Below are positions 10,220 through 62,869 of a stretch of DNA of 64,000 nucleotides, in pieces. The notes under the pieces are model-generated. The model had not been told where the DNA came from, made no database searches, and saw only the letters and a program-made list of their open reading frames with translations. The position numbers were made by a program, and so were the translations under genes. This DNA comes from Myxococcaceae bacterium JPH2 (GTDB lineage Bacteria > Myxococcota > Myxococcia > Myxococcales > Myxococcaceae), in assembly GCA_016458225.1 (NCBI GenBank), contig JAEMGR010000015.1:1-64000 (forward strand), read 5' to 3'. Position 1 is the stretch's first letter. Each line of letters begins with the position of its first letter.

Positions 10220-11935
10220 TCACACCCGCAGCGCGGCGGCGGCGATGCCCGGCACCTTCAGCCAGGAGGGCCCCAGCTCGAACTGGACCAGCCGACGCCC
10301 CAGGTCGAGCGCCCCGCGGTGCCCCGGCACCCAGGGCGGGGGCGGCAGGTTCGTCAGGGGCGCGCGCAGCACCGCCTTCTCGATGTCCTCCAGCATCAGG
10401 GTGTTGTGCACCCAGCCCAGCCCGCTCTGGATGTCCTGGGGCGTGGACGAGGGGTGGCCGCCCCAGGGCAGGCTGCCCAGCACGTAGCCGGCGGCGGGCC
10501 AGGTGTTGATGGCGACCGTGCCGTAGCGCAGCTCGCGCACCGCGCGCTCCACCGCGGCCCGAGCCCGCGCGTCCTGAAGCGTCTTCGGGTGGACGATGAG
10601 CGTCGCGTTGAGGGTGCCCCAGACCCTCTCGTTCAGGAAGGGCACCACCGCGTCCAGGAAGGCCACCGGGTCATCGCCCCCGGGCAGGCCCGTCTCGGAC
10701 AGCACCGTGCACCAGGGCTCCTGGCGGAAGACGCGGTCGTCCAGATGGGTTGGATCCACGCCGGGAATCAGCGCGTAGGGCAGCTCGCCCTCGCCCGCCG
10801 AGCCCACCAACCGCAGGCCGCCGCGCCCCTCGGTGAACTGCTTCCAGCGCAGCTCGGCGCCCGGGTAGTACGCGCGGCGCACGGCGGCGCGGCCCAGGCC
10901 CGCCTGGATGCCGTCCACGAGCTGCCCCCGCCTCGCCCACCCCGCGGGCTGCACCAGCAGCTTGGCCGCGTTGCAGTTGAACGACGCGTTGTTCGACACC
11001 ATGCCCGCGATGTCGTTCGCCTGGAAGCGCAGCTCGCCCTCCGAATACGGGCCGGGCACCACCACCACCGGGGACACATTGCCCAGTTCGCTGGAGAGGG
11101 GCTTGTTGAGCAGCGGCTCGTTGCGCGCGCGCCGCGCGTCGGACTCGGGCCCCGGAGGTCCCCACACGAGCGCGTCGTGCGTCCGGTCGCTCCCGGTGAT
11201 GTGGACCTCGGTCACCGCGGGGTGGTGCACCAGCGCCGCGCCCTCTTCCGCGCCGCCGTACACCACCGCGAAGACGTCCTGGTTCGTGAGGACGGAGAAG
11301 GCCTCTTCCAGGAAGGGCCCCAGGTAGCCGTTCACCGGGTTCATCTTGAGCACGCACGCGGTGCCCTCGACGAAGAGCTTGTAGAGGCAGTCCAGCGGCG
11401 GGATGGAGTTGACGTTGCCCGCGCCCAGCACCGCGCACACCCGACCGCCGTGTGGCTTGCGGTAGAACGAGGCCTGGTGCTCGCGCAGGTTGTCCGCCGT
11501 GACGCCCGGCTGGAAGTACACCTCGCCCACGTTGCGCGGCAGGAGCATCCCGTCGAGCGCGTTCATCGGGTACACCCGCGCGGCGAGCCGCCCGTCATCC
11601 AGCGTCCGCAGCCGCGAACGGGGGATGACGGGCGCGCCGTGCCGCTGGACGTCCTTCAGCGAGTCCACGAGCTGGCGCAGGTTGCGCAGCACCGGCAGCG
11701 GACCGGAGAGCCACTCCTCGCCCGCCAGGGGACTCGCGGGGTCGATGCCCTTGGCCTCGCACGCCGCGCGCACGCTCCGCTCGGCGATGACGCCGTAGGC
11801 GCGGCGCAGCTCTTCCAGCAGGGCGATCTTCTCCTTCAGGCCGCGCTTCACCCACGCGCGCGAGCCCTCCTGGACTCGGCGCACCACGGTTTCGAGTGCC
11901 TGACTGGAAGTGGACCGCGGAACGGCGACGGACAT
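10220..11935 (-). CDS. Aldehyde dehydrogenase family protein
   Basis: 571 residues from the ATG at 11935, which has GGAGG 8 nt upstream; an ATG 21 bp further upstream is less well placed. It carries the ALDH signatures: ITGS in the cofactor-binding region (about 246-249), the general-base Glu in SELGN (about 283), and the nucleophile Cys in NASFNCNAAK (about 321). It is longer than the usual 480-500 residues, with an N-terminal extension of about 100 residues and an unusual central region, so it belongs to a divergent subfamily whose aldehyde substrate I cannot name. It is probably cytoplasmic and NAD(P)-dependent. It is transcribed alone. Confidence 0.85.
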   Translation of the reverse strand: MSVAVPRSTSSQALETVVRRVQEGSRAWVKRGLKEKIALLEELRRAYGVIAERSVRAACEAKGIDPASPLAGEEWLSGPLPVLRNLRQLVDSLKDVQRHGAPVIPRSRLRTLDDGRLAARVYPMNALDGMLLPRNVGEVYFQPGVTADNLREHQASFYRKPHGGRVCAVLGAGNVNSIPPLDCLYKLFVEGTACVLKMNPVNGYLGPFLEEAFSVLTNQDVFAVVYGGAEEGAALVHHPAVTEVHITGSDRTHDALVWGPPGPESDARRARNEPLLNKPLSSELGNVSPVVVVPGPYSEGELRFQANDIAGMVSNNASFNCNAAKLLVQPAGWARRGQLVDGIQAGLGRAAVRRAYYPGAELRWKQFTEGRGGLRLVGSAGEGELPYALIPGVDPTHLDDRVFRQEPWCTVLSETGLPGGDDPVAFLDAVVPFLNERVWGTLNATLIVHPKTLQDARARAAVERAVRELRYGTVAINTWPAAGYVLGSLPWGGHPSSTPQDIQSGLGWVHNTLMLEDIEKAVLRAPLTNLPPPPWVPGHRGALDLGRRLVQFELGPSWLKVPGIAAAALRV

Positions 11936-12019
11936 GGTGACGACCTCCGACGGCATGGGCTCTCCCGAAGGTATAGGAGAAGCCCGCGTCAGGCGTCACG
12001 CGGATGCGAGACTTCGTCG

Positions 12020-14113
12020 TCAGGTGGGCAGTGGTTCGCCCAGGCCCTGGCGGATCGCCTCGTCGATGAGTTCGTACGTCTTCCGGTTCAGCTCGCGGCC
12101 CATGGCCTCCTGCTTCTCGCCCAGCTTCTCCTGCTCACGCCCCAGCACCTCCTGCTTCTCGCCGAGCTTCTCCTGCTCACGCCCCAGCGCCTCCTGCTTC
12201 TCGCCCAGCTTGGACTGCTCGCGCTCCACCGCCGCCTCCTGCTGGTCCAGCTCCGACTCCTTCTTCGCGAGCTCCGCGTGCCGGCGGTCCCGCTCGCGCT
12301 CGTCGGAGAGCTGATCGACGGACGCTTCTTCGATCGCGAGCAGGGCGCGCTTGTGTCCCAGTGCCGCCTGCTTCACGCCGACGGCGGCCTGCTGCTCACC
12401 CAGCGCGGCCTGCTGCTGGCCCAGCTCCGCCTGCTGTCGGCCGAGGGCGCCCTGCTTGTCCCCCAGCGCGGACTGCGCGTCCGCGAGCTCCTTCGAGGGC
12501 ACCGCCGCGTCGCGCATCCGCTTCATGATGCCGTTGTCGCGGATGAGGTACGACTTGCCGCCGCGGCGCACGTAGAGCAGGTCCTTGCCCGGCTGCTTGA
12601 AGGTGCGCGCCAGGTTCACGTCGTCCGAGGAGCCCGACATGTTGATGTGGCCATCGGACATGAGGACGTAGCTGTCCTCGTTGTCGTCATCGACCGGGTA
12701 CCGCGGCGCCGGAGGCGCGGGAGGCGGCACGGGCGCCGTCATCGGAACCACCGCCCGAGGAGGCACCGGCGGCGGAGGAGCCATCGCGAGACGCGGAGGG
12801 GCCGGAGGCACGGGAACGGCGAGCGCGCGCGGAGTCACAGGGGTGACCGGGGTCACGGGAGTCACGAGCGCACGCGGCGTGGCCGGAGTCATGGGAGCAG
12901 TGAGCGCACGCGGCGTCACCGGAGCCACTGGCGCGGTCGGACTCACCGCGACGACCGGCGTCGCCTGGGTCCGCGTGGAAGCCGGCGTGGGCTCCGCGGG
13001 TCGGGCGACCACGGTGACAGGCACCAGCGCCACGGCGCCCAACAATCCCAGTGCCCCCTTCAACCACCGGCGAGAACGAGGGACGACCACATCGACGTGT
13101 TCGAGCATGCGAAGCCTCCTGTGCAGTGCGTGGAGATGAGCGGAGGCGCCATTCGCCGCCGCGGTACCGGGAGCCCGTGTGACTCCAAAGGCAATGAGCA
13201 GATCGCCGTAGTCCGCGGGCTCGGCGCCCGTGAGGCGGAGGGCCTCGGCGTCACAGGCCTCCTCGCGAGCCAGCGCGTATTCGCGGGCCGCCTGGCGCGC
13301 GAGCGGATGGAAGAAGAGGATCGTCTCCGCGAGGGCCGGCACCCAACCCAACCACAGGTCCCCGCGTCGCAAGTGCGCCACCTCGTGAGCGAGCGCCATG
13401 CGCAGCACCTCCACCGGCAACGAGCGCACCGCCTTGGACGGGAGCACCACGACCGGAGACCAGAGCCCCGCCGCCAACGGACTCGCCACCTCGTCCGATA
13501 CGAGCAGCCGAGGCGATGCGCGCAGGCCCGCCTCCGCCGAGAGGAACTCCAACTCCTCCGCGAGCTCCGCGTTCTGGAGCGGCCTCGCGCGCTGGCACAT
13601 GCGCCGCACGCGCAGCCACGCATTCACCTGCATGCGCACCTGCCAGGCGATGCCCACGGCCCACGCGAGCAGCGCAAGGCCCAGCACGTCCCGCAGCAGC
13701 GCCATGCCCCACGCCATGCCCGAGGCTGTCGGAGGAGTCGCACCCATCCGAGGCGCCGAGACCGCGCCGCCCGCGCGCAAGGGAATGACGGGCGCATCCG
13801 CGCTCGTGCCCTGCTCCCACCGCGTCACCACGCGCGCGCCCGGCGACACGTCATGGAGCGCAGCGGGCGCCTCCCCCTGCGCGCCTTGAGGACTCGGGCT
13901 CGCGACGGGAGTCGGCTCGGCCGACAAGAGGGGCAGCGCCACCGGATGCGGCCAGCCCAGGGACAGCACGAACTTCAGCGCCACCAACCACCACAGCCCC
14001 GCGCGCAGCGAGGCGGGCAGGCTCGGCACCACGCGCAGCACCGCCCAGACGAGCAGCGCGCACACCGCGCCCTGCCACGACGCACGCCACAACCCTTCCC
14101 AGAGCAGGCCCAT
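12020..14113 (-). CDS. M56 (BlaR1-like) membrane metallopeptidase with coiled-coil C-terminus
   Basis: 697 residues. The N-terminal part has membrane segments near 10-30, 38-60 and 135-160, a cytoplasmic zinc-peptidase region with HEVAH at 243-247 and downstream acidic residues in AREEACDAE (about 282-290), then a fourth membrane segment near 345-368. In BlaR1/MecR1 the signal is sensed outside and the peptidase relieves repression by BlaI. Here the exported part has no penicillin-binding sensor domain. Instead it has a Pro/Thr/Val-rich linker (about 370-470), a short folded region and a long charged coiled coil (about 545-690) made of heptads like ALGRQQA and a 14-residue LGEKQEALGREQEK repeat. 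It starts 3 bp after the blaI-like stop, so the two form one operon. Confidence 0.85.
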   Translation of the reverse strand: MGLLWEGLWRASWQGAVCALLVWAVLRVVPSLPASLRAGLWWLVALKFVLSLGWPHPVALPLLSAEPTPVASPSPQGAQGEAPAALHDVSPGARVVTRWEQGTSADAPVIPLRAGGAVSAPRMGATPPTASGMAWGMALLRDVLGLALLAWAVGIAWQVRMQVNAWLRVRRMCQRARPLQNAELAEELEFLSAEAGLRASPRLLVSDEVASPLAAGLWSPVVVLPSKAVRSLPVEVLRMALAHEVAHLRRGDLWLGWVPALAETILFFHPLARQAAREYALAREEACDAEALRLTGAEPADYGDLLIAFGVTRAPGTAAANGASAHLHALHRRLRMLEHVDVVVPRSRRWLKGALGLLGAVALVPVTVVARPAEPTPASTRTQATPVVAVSPTAPVAPVTPRALTAPMTPATPRALVTPVTPVTPVTPRALAVPVPPAPPRLAMAPPPPVPPRAVVPMTAPVPPPAPPAPRYPVDDDNEDSYVLMSDGHINMSGSSDDVNLARTFKQPGKDLLYVRRGGKSYLIRDNGIMKRMRDAAVPSKELADAQSALGDKQGALGRQQAELGQQQAALGEQQAAVGVKQAALGHKRALLAIEEASVDQLSDERERDRRHAELAKKESELDQQEAAVEREQSKLGEKQEALGREQEKLGEKQEVLGREQEKLGEKQEAMGRELNRKTYELIDEAIRQGLGEPLPT
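12105..12225 (-). repeat. 42-bp tandem repeat coding a 14-residue coiled-coil unit
   Basis: The 3' end of the M56 peptidase gene holds nearly identical 42-bp units that encode LGEKQEALGREQEK-like peptides about three times. Upstream of it lies a more diverged run of 21-bp units encoding heptads with Leu-Gly at fixed positions. Confidence 0.7.
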
Positions 14114-14116
14114 GGC

Positions 14117-14500
14117 TCACTCCTTCCGCTTCTTCTGCCGCAGCCGCGCCACGACGTCCTGGAGCTGCTTCAGCTCCTCGTCGGTCACATCCTCGGCCTC
14201 GGACAGATAGGTGACGAAGGGGGACAGGGAGCCGGAGAGCTGCCGCTCCACGAAGTCCCCCACCACGCCCCGCAGCAGCTCGCCCGCGGGCACCGGCGAG
14301 ACGTACTGGAAGACCCCTTCCACCTTGCGGCGCGTCAGGTAGCCCTTCAGCCGCAGCCGCTCCATCATCGTCAGGATGGTGGAGCGCGCCAGCCCCTGCG
14401 CCTCACCGAAGCGCTCGGCCACCTCGCCGACCGTCGCCGGTCCGTGCTCCGCCACATGCCGGAGCACCGCCAGCTCCTGCTCTCCCACGGGTTTCTTCAT
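14117..14500 (-). CDS. BlaI/MecI/CopY-family transcriptional repressor
   Basis: 127 residues from the ATG at 14500 (GAGG 5 nt upstream); an ATG at 14521 is also in frame but lies inside an operator. Residues 5-75 form the winged helix of the BlaI family, with the recognition region ARSTILTMMERLRLKGYL and the wing RRKVEGVFQYVSP. The C-terminal half is the helical dimerisation region. BlaI-type repressors bind TACA/TGTA-type dyads and are cleaved when the partner M56 protease is activated. Two matching dyads lie directly upstream. Together with the M56 gene this is a complete signal-protease-repressor unit, probably autoregulated; what it controls and what it senses are unknown. Confidence 0.92.
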   Translation of the reverse strand: MKKPVGEQELAVLRHVAEHGPATVGEVAERFGEAQGLARSTILTMMERLRLKGYLTRRKVEGVFQYVSPVPAGELLRGVVGDFVERQLSGSLSPFVTYLSEAEDVTDEELKQLQDVVARLRQKKRKE

Positions 14501-14513
14501 CGGGGCCTCGCGT

Positions 14514-14529
14514 GACGACATCTGTAGTC
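14514..14529. promoter_or_regulatory. Putative BlaI-type operator 2 (imperfect)
   Basis: GACGACATCTGTAGTC is an imperfect dyad: GACGAC against GTAGTC, one mismatch, 4-nt spacer. It is centred 34 bp from operator 1, about three helical turns, and overlaps an alternative start codon of the repressor gene. Confidence 0.6.
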
Positions 14530-14547
14530 ACGGCGAAAAGTACGCGT

Positions 14548-14563
14548 GACTACAGCCGTAGTC
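14548..14563. promoter_or_regulatory. Putative BlaI-type operator 1 (perfect dyad)
   Basis: GACTACAGCCGTAGTC is a perfect inverted repeat with 6-bp arms and a 4-bp spacer. It resembles the TACA-N-TGTA core bound by BlaI/MecI repressors. It lies 48 bp upstream of the chosen repressor start, where the promoter should be. Confidence 0.7.
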
Positions 14564-14585
14564 AAGAGGCCCTGCCGCGAGCGGG

Positions 14586-58745: not shown

Positions 58746-58782
58746 GTATCAACTCACGCTCCTCGCGGACACGAGGAGCGAC
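58746..58782 (-). repeat. Degenerate trailer-end CRISPR repeat
   Basis: Compared with the consensus, this repeat has A for T at its third base and T for C at its ninth base (plus-strand reading GTATCAACTCACG). It is the one furthest from the leader. Confidence 0.9.
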
Positions 58783-59554
58783 ACAATGAGCACCTCCGGG
58801 CGCAAGGCATCGGGGTTTCAACCCACGCTCCTCGCGGACACGAGGAGCGACACTCCATCCTCGACCAAGAGCCGGAACATAGCCCGTTTCAACCCACGCT
58901 CCTCGCGGACACGAGGAGCGACGCGCCGATGGTGCTCGCGCTACTCGCCGGGCGGTTTCAACCCACGCTCCTCGCGGACACGAGGAGCGACCCTTTTGAA
59001 TTTGGTCGTAGGCGTTCTGACCAAGTTTCAACCCACGCTCCTCGCGGACACGAGGAGCGACTCTTCCGCTCATGCGCGCCACGCAGCGGGCGGTTTCAAC
59101 CCACGCTCCTCGCGGACACGAGGAGCGACTCCCGTCATACCGTCGGCCTTGGCGCGGTCCAGGTTTCAACCCACGCTCCTCGCGGACACGAGGAGCGACA
59201 GCCCCAGCTCATTCGCAGCCCGGCGCATGGTTTGTTTCAACCCACGCTCCTCGCGGACACGAGGAGCGACTCCCACCACCCATCGCCCAACGATTCTTGG
59301 ACTGTTTCAACCCACGCTCCTCGCGGACACGAGGAGCGACCGGGTGGCTGGCCGTGCAGATTCGACTCGCCAAGGTTTCAACCCACGCTCCTCGCGGACA
59401 CGAGGAGCGACTTGTTGTCGCGCGGAATGAGCGAATGACTTGTTGAGTTTCAACCCACGCTCCTCGCGGACACGAGGAGCGACGCCGCGCCTCGTCTCGC
59501 TCCTCCTGGACGCGACGGTTTCAACCCACGCTCCTCGCGGACACGAGGAGCGAC

Positions 59555-60008
59555 GCCCCGCCCAGTCCAACGCCTGGGTGATAGCCTGGTTTCAACCCAC
59601 GCTCCTTGCGGACACGAGGAGCGACATGAACTCGTCAACCGCACCGCGCATGTCGAGGTTTCAACCCACGCTCCTCGCGGACACGAGGAGCGACGGGCCT
59701 CTGGCGAGCCTCACCGCATATTCCGCGGTTTCAACCCACGCTCCTCGCGGACACGCGGAGCGACGCCCCGCCCAGTCCAACGCCTGGGTGATAGCCTGGT
59801 TTCAACCCACGCTCCTTGCGGACACGAGGAGCGACATGAACTCGTCAACCGCACCGCGCATGTCGAGGTTTCAACCCACGCTCCTCGCGGACACGAGGAG
59901 CGACCTCCAGGACTACGGGATGGGGACGTCGCCAGTGGGTTTCAACCCACGCTCCTCGCGGACACGAGGAGCGACTGGCCTCTGGCGAGCCTCACCGCAT
60001 ATTCCGCG
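59555..60008 (-). repeat. Segmental duplication in the CRISPR array, block 1
   Basis: The spacers at 59555-59588 and 59626-59657 recur exactly at 59765-59798 and 59836-59867. The repeat between them (59589 and 59799) carries the same rare C-to-T change in both copies, so the spacers and repeat were copied together. The spacer at 59695-59727 recurs at 59976-60008 with its first base changed, after one unrelated spacer (59905-59938). Confidence 0.92.
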
Positions 60009-60468
60009 GTTTCAACCCACGCTCCTCGCGGACACGAGGAGCGACTAGCGCCATTCACCAGCACGAGGGACTGGCGAAGTTTCAACCCACGCTCCTCGCG
60101 GACACGAGGAGCGACCCTGGAGGAGCTGTCGCCTCATTTCCTCGGTGATGTTTCAACCCACGCTCCTCGCGGACACGAGGAGCGACATCCACGGGCGATC
60201 GGCCGTGAAGGAGCCAGTCCAGTTTCAACCCACGCTCCTCGCGGACACGAGGAGCGACCAGTTCCGCGCACGACTGGCAGCCACTCATCAGTTTCAACCC
60301 ACGCTCCTCGCGGACACGAGGAGCGACCATGGAGTCAAGGACTACTCCTCGGTCCCCTCCTGTTTCAACCCACGCTCCTCGCGGACACGAGGAGCGACAT
60401 GGAGCCAAACCAAGATGCCAGCCGATATCAAGTTTCAACCCACGCTCCTCGCGGACACGAGGAGCGAC

Positions 60469-60778
60469 CATGTCGCTCGGAAGTCCTTGAGCATTCTGCC
60501 GGTTTCAACCCACGCTCCTCGCGGACACGAGGAGCGACTATCCGGGCCTGATTCATCAGTGCTTCGAGCAGTTTCAACCCACGCTCCTCGCGGACACGAG
60601 GAGCGACTATCCGGGCCTGATTCATCAGTGCTTCGAGCAGTTTCAACCCACGCTCCTCGCGGACACGAGGAGCGACCATGTCGCTCGGAAGTCCTTGAGC
60701 ATTCTGCCGGTTTCAACCCACGCTCCTCGCGGACACGAGGAGCGACTATCAGGGCCTGATTCATCAGTGCTTCGAGCA
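60469..60778 (-). repeat. Spacer duplications in the CRISPR array, block 2
   Basis: Five consecutive spacers use two sequences. The spacers at 60469-60501 and 60677-60709 are identical. The spacers at 60539-60570 and 60608-60639 are identical, and the one at 60747-60778 differs from them by one base (C to A at its fifth base). Confidence 0.92.
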
Positions 60779-61169
60779 GTTTCAACCCACGCTCCTCGCG
60801 GACACGAGGAGCGACCGTCGCTGTTCCCGCGCGGGAGTCAGGCGCTGTCGTTTCAACCCACGCTCCTCGCGGACACGAGGAGCGACATCCGCAGGATGGC
60901 GAACCCGGTGCCGCGGCGCGCGTTTCAACCCACGCTCCTCGCGGACACGAGGAGCGACAACCGCCAGCCTCGTGGAAGCGAACGTGACCGCGTTTCAACC
61001 CACGCTCCTCGCGGACACGAGGAGCGACCTGATGCCCAGTACGCGCGCTACAAGCCCGTGGAGTTTCAACCCACGCTCCTCGCGGACACGAGGAGCGACT
61101 GCCGGTGATGTCCATGTTCGCCATGTTCTTACGTTTCAACCCACGCTCCTCGCGGACACGAGGAGCGAC

Positions 61170-61624
61170 TTCCACGACCCCATGCTCGTCCCGCTCGGGC
61201 GAGGTTTCAACCCACGCTCCTCGCGGACACGAGGAGCGACGGTGGTCAGCTTCTTCAGCGTGTACTCGGCCGAGTTTCAACCCACGCTCCTCGCGGACAC
61301 GACGAGCGACCGGGCCCCCCGAGACGAACTGGCGGCCCATCGGGTTTCAACCCACGCTCCTCGCGGACACGAGGAGCGACTTCCACGACCCCATGCGCGT
61401 CCCGCTCGGGCGAGGTTTCAACCCACGCTCCTCGCGGACACGAGGAGCGACCGGGCCCCCCGAGACGAACTGGCGGCCCATCGGGTTTCAACCCACGCTC
61501 CTCGCGGACACGAGGAGCGACTGAGCCCGTGCACGCTCTTGAGCGCACCTGCTGGTTTCAACCCACGCTCCTCGCGGACACGAGGAGCGACGGTGGTCAG
61601 CTTCTTCAGCGTGTACTCGGCCGA
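61170..61624 (-). repeat. Spacer duplications in the CRISPR array, block 3
   Basis: Spacer 61170-61203 recurs at 61381-61414 with one changed base. Spacer 61241-61273 recurs exactly at 61592-61624. Spacer 61311-61343 recurs exactly at 61452-61484. Their order differs between the copies, and the variant repeat at 61274 is not carried along. Confidence 0.92.
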
Positions 61625-62869
61625 GTTTCAACCCACGCTCCTCGCGGACACGAGGAGCGACTGGGAAATTTACGACTGGATGCAACTTGGTCTAGTTTCA
61701 ACCCACGCTCCTCGCGGACACGAGGAGCGACGTAGCCCCCTTGTCCCCGAGGGTGCCCGCAGTGTGTTTCAACCCACGCTCCTCGCGGACACGAGGAGCG
61801 ACTGGCCATTGCCTCCGCGTTGATCTGCGACGTTCCGTTTCAACCCACGCTCCTCGCGGACACGAGGAGCGACCACGACGCGCCCCGGAGCGACCTCCGA
61901 ACACAGGTTTCAACCCACGCTCCTCGCGGACACGAGGAGCGACTGTGCGGCTTCAGGATGATGGAGCCGTTGGAGCTGTTTCAACCCACGCTCCTCGCGG
62001 ACACGAGGAGCGACGTCTGGCGAAGGTCGACCCCACCGGCATTTGCCGGTTTCAACCCACGCTCCTCGCGGACACGAGGAGCGACCCTGCTGCTCGCGCA
62101 GCTCCGGGCACGCGGGAGCGTTTCAACCCACGCTCCTCGCGGACACGAGGAGCGACGCTACGGCGCGCGACTGCTGGAGCTGCGGCGCGGCGTTTCAACC
62201 CACGCTCCTCGCGGACACGAGGAGCGACCGCGCTGCAGGCGAAGGCGCAGGACTACATCGCGTTTCAACCCACGCTCCTCGCGGACACGAGGAGCGACCT
62301 GATCCGTAGCATCACGCCGTCACAGGTCACTCGTTTCAACCCACGCTCCTCGCGGACACGAGGAGCGACAGCCCCCCTCACCCATCACGAAAGGAACCAT
62401 CCATGTTTCAACCCACGCTCCTCGCGGACACGAGGAGCGACGACGGTGTCCATCACCTGCGTTCCGAACGGTGAGTTTCAACCCACGCTCCTCGCGGACA
62501 CGAGGAGCGACGGGCTGTGTGACTTCGGCTCGTCCACGTCGAAGTCGTTTCAACCCACGCTCCTCGCGGACACGAGGAGCGACTGGGTCGGTGGTGAGTG
62601 GCAATTGATGCCATTCGTGTTTCAACCCACGCTCCTCGCGGACACGAGGAGCGACCATCCGGACGCCCGCCGAGCGCGAGGCCGCCCAGGTTTCAACCCA
62701 CGCTCCTCGCGGACACGAGGAGCGACAGCGCCGCGCCGAGGTCCGTTGCCGCCGTGGCGCGTTTCAACCCACGCTCCTCGCGGACACGAGGAGCGACGGT
62801 GCGAGCTTCTTCGACAACATCGGGTATCTCGAGTTTCAACCCACGCTCCTCGCGGACACGAGGAGCGAC

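Follow-up and report, generated by a model that had tools for sequence, protein, structure and literature searches.

A BlaR1-type M56 protease with a predicted exported hairpin module in place of the penicillin sensor in Myxococcaceae

Introduction

The closest described relatives of the gene pair considered here are BlaR1/MecR1 and their repressors BlaI/MecI from Staphylococcus and Bacillus licheniformis. Their membrane protease has an M56 gluzincin core and, after its fourth transmembrane segment (TM4), an exported penicillin-binding sensor of the class-D-lactamase-like SxxK type, and the adjoining repressor gene has dyad operators over its promoter. In the available parts of the reports on it, BlaR1 takes its input on the periplasmic side and gives its output by proteolysis of the cytoplasmic repressor (PMC9834060, PMC7593790). 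Here, we describe a related pair in a 64,000-nucleotide stretch of Myxococcaceae bacterium JPH2 (contig JAEMGR010000015.1, positions 1 to 64,000; hereafter the window), where a minus-strand gene at 12020..14113 encodes a BlaR1-type M56 membrane metalloprotease of 697 amino acids (ATG to stop). It resembles BlaR1/MecR1 in its core, with the same HExxH, D and ExxxD spacing, in the adjoining BlaI/MecI-type repressor gene, in the dyad operators over the repressor promoter, and in the probable export of the part that follows TM4. It differs in that this part is a Pro-rich tether and a predicted hairpin module. Myxobacteria also have a Gram-negative envelope, unlike the Staphylococcus and Bacillus hosts of BlaR1.

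Mycobacterium tuberculosis offers a second comparison with its BlaR1 homolog, which we take to be Rv1845c, paired with the BlaI protein Rv1846c. That homolog is likewise an M56 protease without a penicillin sensor; in the available part of its description it has no equivalent sensor domain, whereas the window protein has a conserved exported module that is predicted to be folded (PMC9834060). The BlaR1-type proteases found in the literature are antibiotic sensors, as far as the available parts of those sources go, and a search on BlaR1, BlaI and M56, myxobacteria included, found nothing about the module in the titles and abstract openings listed. A conserved, sequence-defined exported module with natural variants that have or lack it, a stand-alone form, and an apparently minimal repressor regulon make the inputs of BlaR1-like proteases without penicillin sensors an experimentally approachable question.

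An M56 protease and a BlaI-type repressor gene behind two operators

The 697-residue protein matches Pfam Peptidase_M56 (PF05569) with E = 8e-40 and 137.3 bits against a cut-off of 31, and its HEVAH zinc motif lies at residues 243-247 (13373..13387, minus strand). An earlier note on this DNA had placed the gene in the same coordinates and frame, and its reading of an intact M56 core and HEVAH motif agrees with these matches. Besides M56, Pfam gives just one sub-threshold coiled-coil match; no penicillin-binding or transpeptidase family appears at E <= 0.1, in line with the same note, and no wall- or membrane-anchoring domain known to Pfam was found. The NCBIfam model blaR1_generic reaches 78.7 bits against a cut-off of 400 in a match that covers residues 148-310 alone. 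Since the sensor characteristic of a BlaR1 beta-lactam receptor was looked for and is missing, the protein does not count as one.

The zinc site of BlaR1 is made of H201, H205, D210, E242 and D246 in the available part of the structural report (PMC9834060). The HExxH motif of the window protein together with E284xxxD288 reproduces the offsets of BlaR1 H201/D210/E242/D246, at +9, +41 and +45 from the first His, and Y302 and R332/R333 are candidate equivalents of BlaR1 Tyr261 and Arg293/294, with offsets shorter by 1 and 3 (PMC9834060). Residues H243, E244, H247, D252, E284, D288, Y302, R332 and R333 are all invariant in an alignment of 41 sequences (22 effective), on which all conservation values given here are based; 9 further orthologs missed by an N-terminal pattern and 2 loci (L074 and L075) were left out of it. 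The protein has 4 hydrophobic segments, at about residues 8-26, 34-52, 137-155 and 351-369. Because of these segments, and because the same module occurs elsewhere as a stand-alone protein with a signal-peptide-like start, the predicted topology has the C-terminal part probably exported, as the earlier note had supposed.

Directly upstream of the M56 gene lies a BlaI/MecI-type repressor gene (14117..14491, minus strand; start MKKPVG, with the mechanical open reading frame (ORF) beginning at 14521). Its product matches Pfam Penicillinase_R (PF03965) with 4e-24 and 85.5 bits against a cut-off of 22.6, and phmmer matches it to the MecI and BlaI structures 1okr and 1sd4. A BlaI ORF adjoins the M56 gene in the window and in 50 of the 51 loci fetched for comparison, all 50 from the same family and with repressors 73-98% identical to that of the window; the miss (L074) is a stand-alone module case. 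The window protein thus belongs to the M56 family and the repressor to the BlaI family, and the pair probably works like BlaR1-BlaI.

Two copies of the dyad TGACTAC-N4-GTAGTCA precede blaI on the minus strand. Operator O1, TGACTACGGCTGTAGTCA (14547..14564), is a perfect dyad and overlaps a -35-like TTGACT (14560-14565), and operator O2, TGACTACAGATGTCGTCA (14513..14530), has one mismatch to the dyad. The likely promoter, read from the sequence, spans 14537..14565 on the same strand (TTGACT, 17 nt, TACTTT); it falls below the threshold of a generic promoter scanner and went unreported by it. The -10-like box is TACCTT in most relatives compared, the upstream regions being those of 27 of the 52 entries (window plus 51 loci) after 25 were missed by the start pattern. 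Exactly two operators with no more than 2 mismatches, 33-35 bp apart, occur in 51 of the 52 entries, L074 again being the miss, and the stretches of 7.5-8.5 kb examined around those 51 contain no further operator at that threshold. This arrangement suggests that BlaI binds both operators and that the operon is autorepressed.

Across the organism's own genome, the two sites at the blaI promoter are the only ones with up to 2 mismatches, while a reversed control pattern gave 7. Additional BlaI targets in this genome were therefore rejected at that threshold, which sites with 3 or more mismatches would escape. Sites with at most one mismatch were found in 65 of 96 family genomes, two per genome being commonest, with positions known for the fetched loci. 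Since a different exported module stands in the place of the penicillin-binding domain and the strong sites of the repressor are only at its own promoter, the M56 protein probably senses something other than penicillin.

A predicted folded module at the end of a proline-rich tether

Downstream of TM4 the protein continues into a Pro/Ala/Val/Thr linker (residues 370-475; 12689..13006, minus strand) that consists of 33% Pro, 19% Ala, 15% Val and 13% Thr, the Pro/Thr linker of the earlier note. The same note took all that follows for a coiled coil that replaces the sensor. A BlaR1-like protease that lacks the penicillin-binding domain is supported, but AlphaFold models and the arm lengths of relatives indicate a folded base with an antiparallel hairpin. 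On the minus strand, the predicted parts are a strand-strand-helix-strand-strand base domain (residues 480-526; 12536..12676), a first helix arm of 74 residues (527-600; 12314..12535), a second of 84 residues (605-688; 12050..12301), and a tail whose last 9 residues, LIDEAIRQGLGEPLPT (689-697; 12023..12049), include a predicted terminal strand at 692-695. The base, between linker and coil, and the conserved tail (683-697) after the coil were missing from the earlier description. Conservation supports both, with G494, D498, A502, R516, R525 and D526 of the base and A686, G690 and P694 of the tail invariant.

Modelled alone from 5 sequences, the module has a mean predicted local distance difference test score (pLDDT) of 91.7 and a predicted template modelling score (pTM) of 0.64, with a four-strand/one-helix base, a hairpin of 74+84 residues and a C-terminal strand. 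The full-length model keeps this fold (strands 481-486, 489-493, 512-517 and 520-524, helix 496-505, helices 527-600 and 605-688, strand 692-695), and the DSSP assignment, as distinct from coordinates, suggests that the terminal strand joins the base sheet. In these models the exported end of the protein is one folded module, not a bare coil. The earlier note had named a hidden ligand domain in a structural model as evidence against its view; the model does contain a structured domain, possibly a ligand-binding one, and to that extent counts against the view.

The Leu-Gly heptads of that note are borne out by [LVM]G pairs at exact 7-residue spacing, six in each arm, with one extra non-heptad LG near the C-terminus. 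In the six LG heptads of each arm, Gln takes position a and Gly position e, and the Leu of position d gives way to Val or Met here and there. Tandem Repeats Finder (TRF) detects the 42-bp DNA repeats at 12091..12252 on the minus strand (3.9 copies, 84% matches, score 205), each corresponding to a two-heptad unit of the arm 2 coding sequence, and also 21/63-bp arrays at 12357-12476. A chance tandem repeat without protein meaning was rejected, since relatives from different genera share the LG heptads and the Gln in the core.

The module is not described by any model of Pfam or NCBIfam in the copies consulted. Foldseek gave no match to it at E <= 0.001, and in a PDB sequence search its best E was 0.41, with none for the full protein at 0.01. 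Among the 50 matches listed, VIA gave Z of 11.5-12.7, root-mean-square deviations of 1.6-5.5 and aligned lengths of 128-169, mostly with PI3K iSH2 and also with SMC, IpaB and other long helical pieces; these cover chiefly model residues 55-209, the hairpin, and barely probe the base. Compared with its own genome at E <= 0.001, the LG coil matched nothing beyond its own sequence and arm 1 of the protein that contains it, so a second LG-coil protein as a partner was rejected. In periplasmic adaptors of the HlyD/MacA type, a small base with beta structure likewise carries a long inserted hairpin of two antiparallel helices. The likeness to them is an analogy only; the window protein has no Pfam match of this type, and its base, with two beta hairpins and a helix, looks different. 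The VIA matches, dominated by generic hairpins at Z of about 12, leave room for membership of a family.

Predicted hairpin and tether in relatives

Arm lengths could be measured in 45 of 51 sequences, six having been missed by the search pattern, and L075 was set aside. The pairs of arm 1 and arm 2 lengths are (80,82) in 20 sequences, (81,82) in 13, (83,75) in three, and (74,75), (83,82) and (97,89) in two each, with (75,68), (90,82) and (69,60) occurring once. The step from (81,82) to (74,75) is the loss of one heptad per arm flanking the turn, as seen in the L093 alignment, and (83,75), (90,82) and (97,89) differ successively by one heptad in both arms. Over the 9 distinct pairs the lengths correlate with r = 0.85, which is supportive and not a formal test because the points share ancestry. 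That the arms tend to change together by heptads hints at an intramolecular antiparallel hairpin.

The linker ranges from 24 to 246 residues in 50 proteins (median 127, coefficient of variation (CV) 0.40), and 36-bp tandem repeats lie within it at 12843-12928; these may explain how rapidly its length changes. In the same 50 proteins the distance from the IRD motif to the C-terminus is 152-195 residues (median 171, CV 0.04) and equals 171 or 172 in 38 of them, for which reason the 42-bp repeats appear unlike freely slipping DNA repeats. A comparison of repeat number among relatives, as the earlier note had proposed, finds length shifts by heptads in an element of mostly fixed size, and free variation in repeat number was rejected, since coil length is nearly fixed and shifts by heptads, mostly in both arms. 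With a tether so variable and a module of almost uniform length, the total reach is not conserved; judged from these sequences, the conserved element is the module.

Mean column entropy is lowest in the transmembrane, M56 and tail regions (0.5-0.7 bits). Within the module, the tail is lowest at 0.67 bits, followed by the base (1.10), the arms (1.30 and 1.31) and the tip (1.36). The linker stands at 1.81 bits, and loop 53-135, at 2.27 bits, is the least conserved region measured.

Proposed mechanism and alternatives

We consider it fairly probable that the locus encodes a BlaI-M56 regulated-proteolysis circuit with the periplasmic hairpin module as its input and an autorepressed operon. This reading carries over to the M56 protein, by analogy, the input side and the repressor proteolysis of BlaR1. 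M56 would span the inner membrane; its zinc protease would face the cytoplasm, and a flexible Pro-rich tether would hold the hairpin module in the periplasm, while BlaI would silence blaI-M56 by binding the two operators over its own promoter. A signal from the envelope, probably a component of the wall or a protein, would be recognised by the module and change it, with base and tail as the best guess for the sensing surface, which is the weakest step of the scheme. M56 would then cleave BlaI and derepress the operon. The output would be mainly the operon itself, that is, M56 plus any co-transcribed gene, to which some relatives would add a single further target: in Corallococcus a small protein with one helix, in two genomes a module-less M56 paralog.

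Several observations weigh against this scheme. Cleavage of BlaI by M56 is assumed from the analogy with BlaR1. In MecI and BlaI of S. aureus the scissile pair is Asn-Phe (N-F), and the window repressor aligns Y-L at this position. BlaR1 cleaves itself ahead of Phe284, within the loop that leads up to the conserved Arg294; residues 316-331 of the window protein, matched to that loop by offset only, contain no Phe. As far as aligned, then, the scissile residues of BlaR1/MecR1 systems are not conserved in the window pair, which also differs from them in that its genome has no strong operator outside its own promoter. Strong sites confined to that promoter leave the physiological output of the pair unexplained; it would be M56 itself, the aldehyde-dehydrogenase-like neighbour if co-transcribed, or targets with weaker sites. 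The charge on either side of TM4 is only weakly asymmetric (3 K/R before, 2 after), and the full-length AlphaFold model (mean pLDDT 60.7) is poor except in the module. As to the hairpin, the difference in arm length spans -2 to +9 between groups, and the clade of L077 and L078, at (83,82), breaks the paired-arm rule. The choice of base and tail as sensing surface is also challenged, since conservation in the distal half of arm 1 (1.13 bits) comes close to that of the base and since R610 and K617, close to the hairpin tip, are invariant, so that the tip side may matter too.

The earlier note had proposed instead a mechanical or envelope-spacing sensor or an oligomeric trigger. In the first, coil and linker would serve as a ruler from the inner membrane to the wall or outer membrane, with strain activating M56; in the second, several molecules would join their LG heptads in a parallel coiled coil, and this clustering would activate the protease. 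The ruler could draw on a probably exported, elongated hairpin, whose arms of 74 and 84 residues would extend some 11 nm at 1.5 A per residue, and on a Gln-containing core that might unzip easily. However, the tether varies tenfold among the 50 proteins beside a nearly constant module, a chain that runs out and back in the predicted secondary structure would bring the C-terminus back to the base, away from the far end, and Pfam recognises no wall- or membrane-anchoring domain; we hold the ruler to be unlikely. Clustering is favoured by the regular heptads of both arms and by BlaR1 being itself a dimer in the available part of its description (PMC9834060), but the confident model of a single chain shows two long helices joined by a short turn, and the arms of relatives tend to vary in parallel, as expected of an intramolecular antiparallel hairpin. 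A trigger of this kind is likewise unlikely in our view, and dimerisation through the M56 part, as in BlaR1, is possible.

A different role for the module would be that of product, a structural or carrier protein whose level is set by the BlaI loop, with M56 mainly tethering the module and reporting its own level. This would suit a genome whose strong operators lie only at their own promoter, as well as the stand-alone form, with its signal-peptide-like start, that two genomes from a related family encode. Set against it are the invariance of the checked catalytic residues and the presence of the BlaI partner and operators at each same-family locus examined, both as one would expect of a functioning protease switch, and the two genomes in which an operator-preceded M56 ends before the module, and we regard such a role as improbable. 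An ordinary beta-lactam response that senses the antibiotic indirectly, for example through periplasmic loop 53-136 or a partner protein, has a precedent in the M. tuberculosis BlaR1 homolog without an equivalent sensor domain, for which indirect sensing was proposed in the available part of the source (PMC9834060). Here, the lack of any other operator with up to 2 mismatches means that no strong site lies at a beta-lactamase or penicillin-binding protein gene, and the loop concerned is the most variable region measured. The neighbouring beta-lactamase-fold gene scores above the cut-off of a metal-dependent hydrolase model and far below those of class B lactamase models, and among the 52 entries it accompanies M56 in the window and in one locus of the same genus (L035) only. 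We think a response of this kind very unlikely.

Within the proteolysis circuit, a more specific gating can be imagined, to which we give little credence. The terminal strand would close the base sheet after the chain has run about 11 nm out and back through the Leu/Gln core; this latch would open when a peptide or a partner in the periplasm either binds to the hairpin or competes for that strand, and the opened base would signal through TM4 to M56. If true, this would be a new gating of a one-component membrane protease and an autonomous module exchanged between free and protease-fused forms.

Distribution and stand-alone forms

A profile of the base domain matches 64 of 195 genomes of the phylum. 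The family of the window accounts for 61 of these, with one copy each, in genera that include Hyalangium, Pyxidicoccus, Myxococcus and Corallococcus, and the other 3 come from a single genus in a different family of the order. The M56 open frame has at least 619 amino acids in 52 of the 61 family genomes and is shorter (254-339) in nine, among which six frames end at contig ends and one (G169) is broken.

In that second family, the module forms a stand-alone protein, which starts with a short hydrophobic stretch resembling a signal peptide, in G159 (L074/L149) and G193 (L147), the third genome being G183. G159 has two such copies in tandem, with a gene that by eye encodes a hybrid histidine kinase-receiver upstream of them, and the protein of G193 has no Pfam match at 0.01. 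M56 proteins are also encoded in each of the three genomes, with different C-terminal parts. Since two genomes from outside the family of the window encode it by itself, behind a signal-peptide-like start, the module appears to be an autonomous, probably periplasmic or exported unit.

M56 proteins of similar kind with LG heptads probably exist in other phyla. A pattern scan of the contigs of named genomes, which were covered in small part, confirmed 4 of 93 matches, all in myxobacteria. In a plasmid search the L068 fragment had no match at 0.01 and the L074 fragment only noise (E 3-10), and none was confirmed among viral contigs compared with a fragment of the window.

Neighbouring genes and further loci

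An aldehyde-dehydrogenase-like gene lies 63 bp downstream of the M56 gene (10220..11956, minus strand; Pfam Aldedh 2e-8), and a homolog is present in 30 of the 52 entries; it is possibly a member of the operon. In Corallococcus (L115-L120, L133-L140) a second operator pair precedes the gene of an 86-residue membrane protein with a single helix, which occurs in 13 of 96 genomes, all Corallococcus; the genome of the window contains no homolog at E <= 0.001. This gene is followed by a prolyl-oligopeptidase-like peptidase gene (named by eye) in 3 of 9 genomes examined, and in L115 the start of the peptidase gene overlaps the stop of the smaller one.

An operator pair directly precedes an M56 paralog in G132 and G157 (L128 and L129), whose frame of 418-419 amino acids stops in the linker and beside which no BlaI gene was recognised by pattern. 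By sequence, these are natural module-less versions of M56 behind the same kind of operator. G173 has operators, BlaI and an M56 gene that runs off the contig in the linker, and single operator sites are present in G131, G087 and G076.

The genome of the window encodes two further BlaI-M56 pairs, L130 and L131, and a fourth M56 gene (L103/L132). Both pairs resemble that of the window in having a BlaI-like gene beside M56 of the same family and differ in their exported parts, which by eye are helical-looking repeats in L130, after a Pro-rich stretch that follows the last transmembrane segment, and another sequence in L131; Pfam finds only M56 and M48 in them. Since two more pairs carry other exported parts, M56 may often have exchanged its sensor in this organism.

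Elsewhere in the window, at 58749-62869, a repeat of about 37 bp, GTTTCAACCCACGCTCCTCGCGGACACGAGGAGCGAC, recurs in more than 50 copies with a period of about 70 bp and looks like an array of clustered regularly interspaced short palindromic repeats (CRISPR). At 2-1075, 276-bp tandem repeats in 3.9 copies resemble, by eye, the repeated HAMP domains of a sensor kinase.

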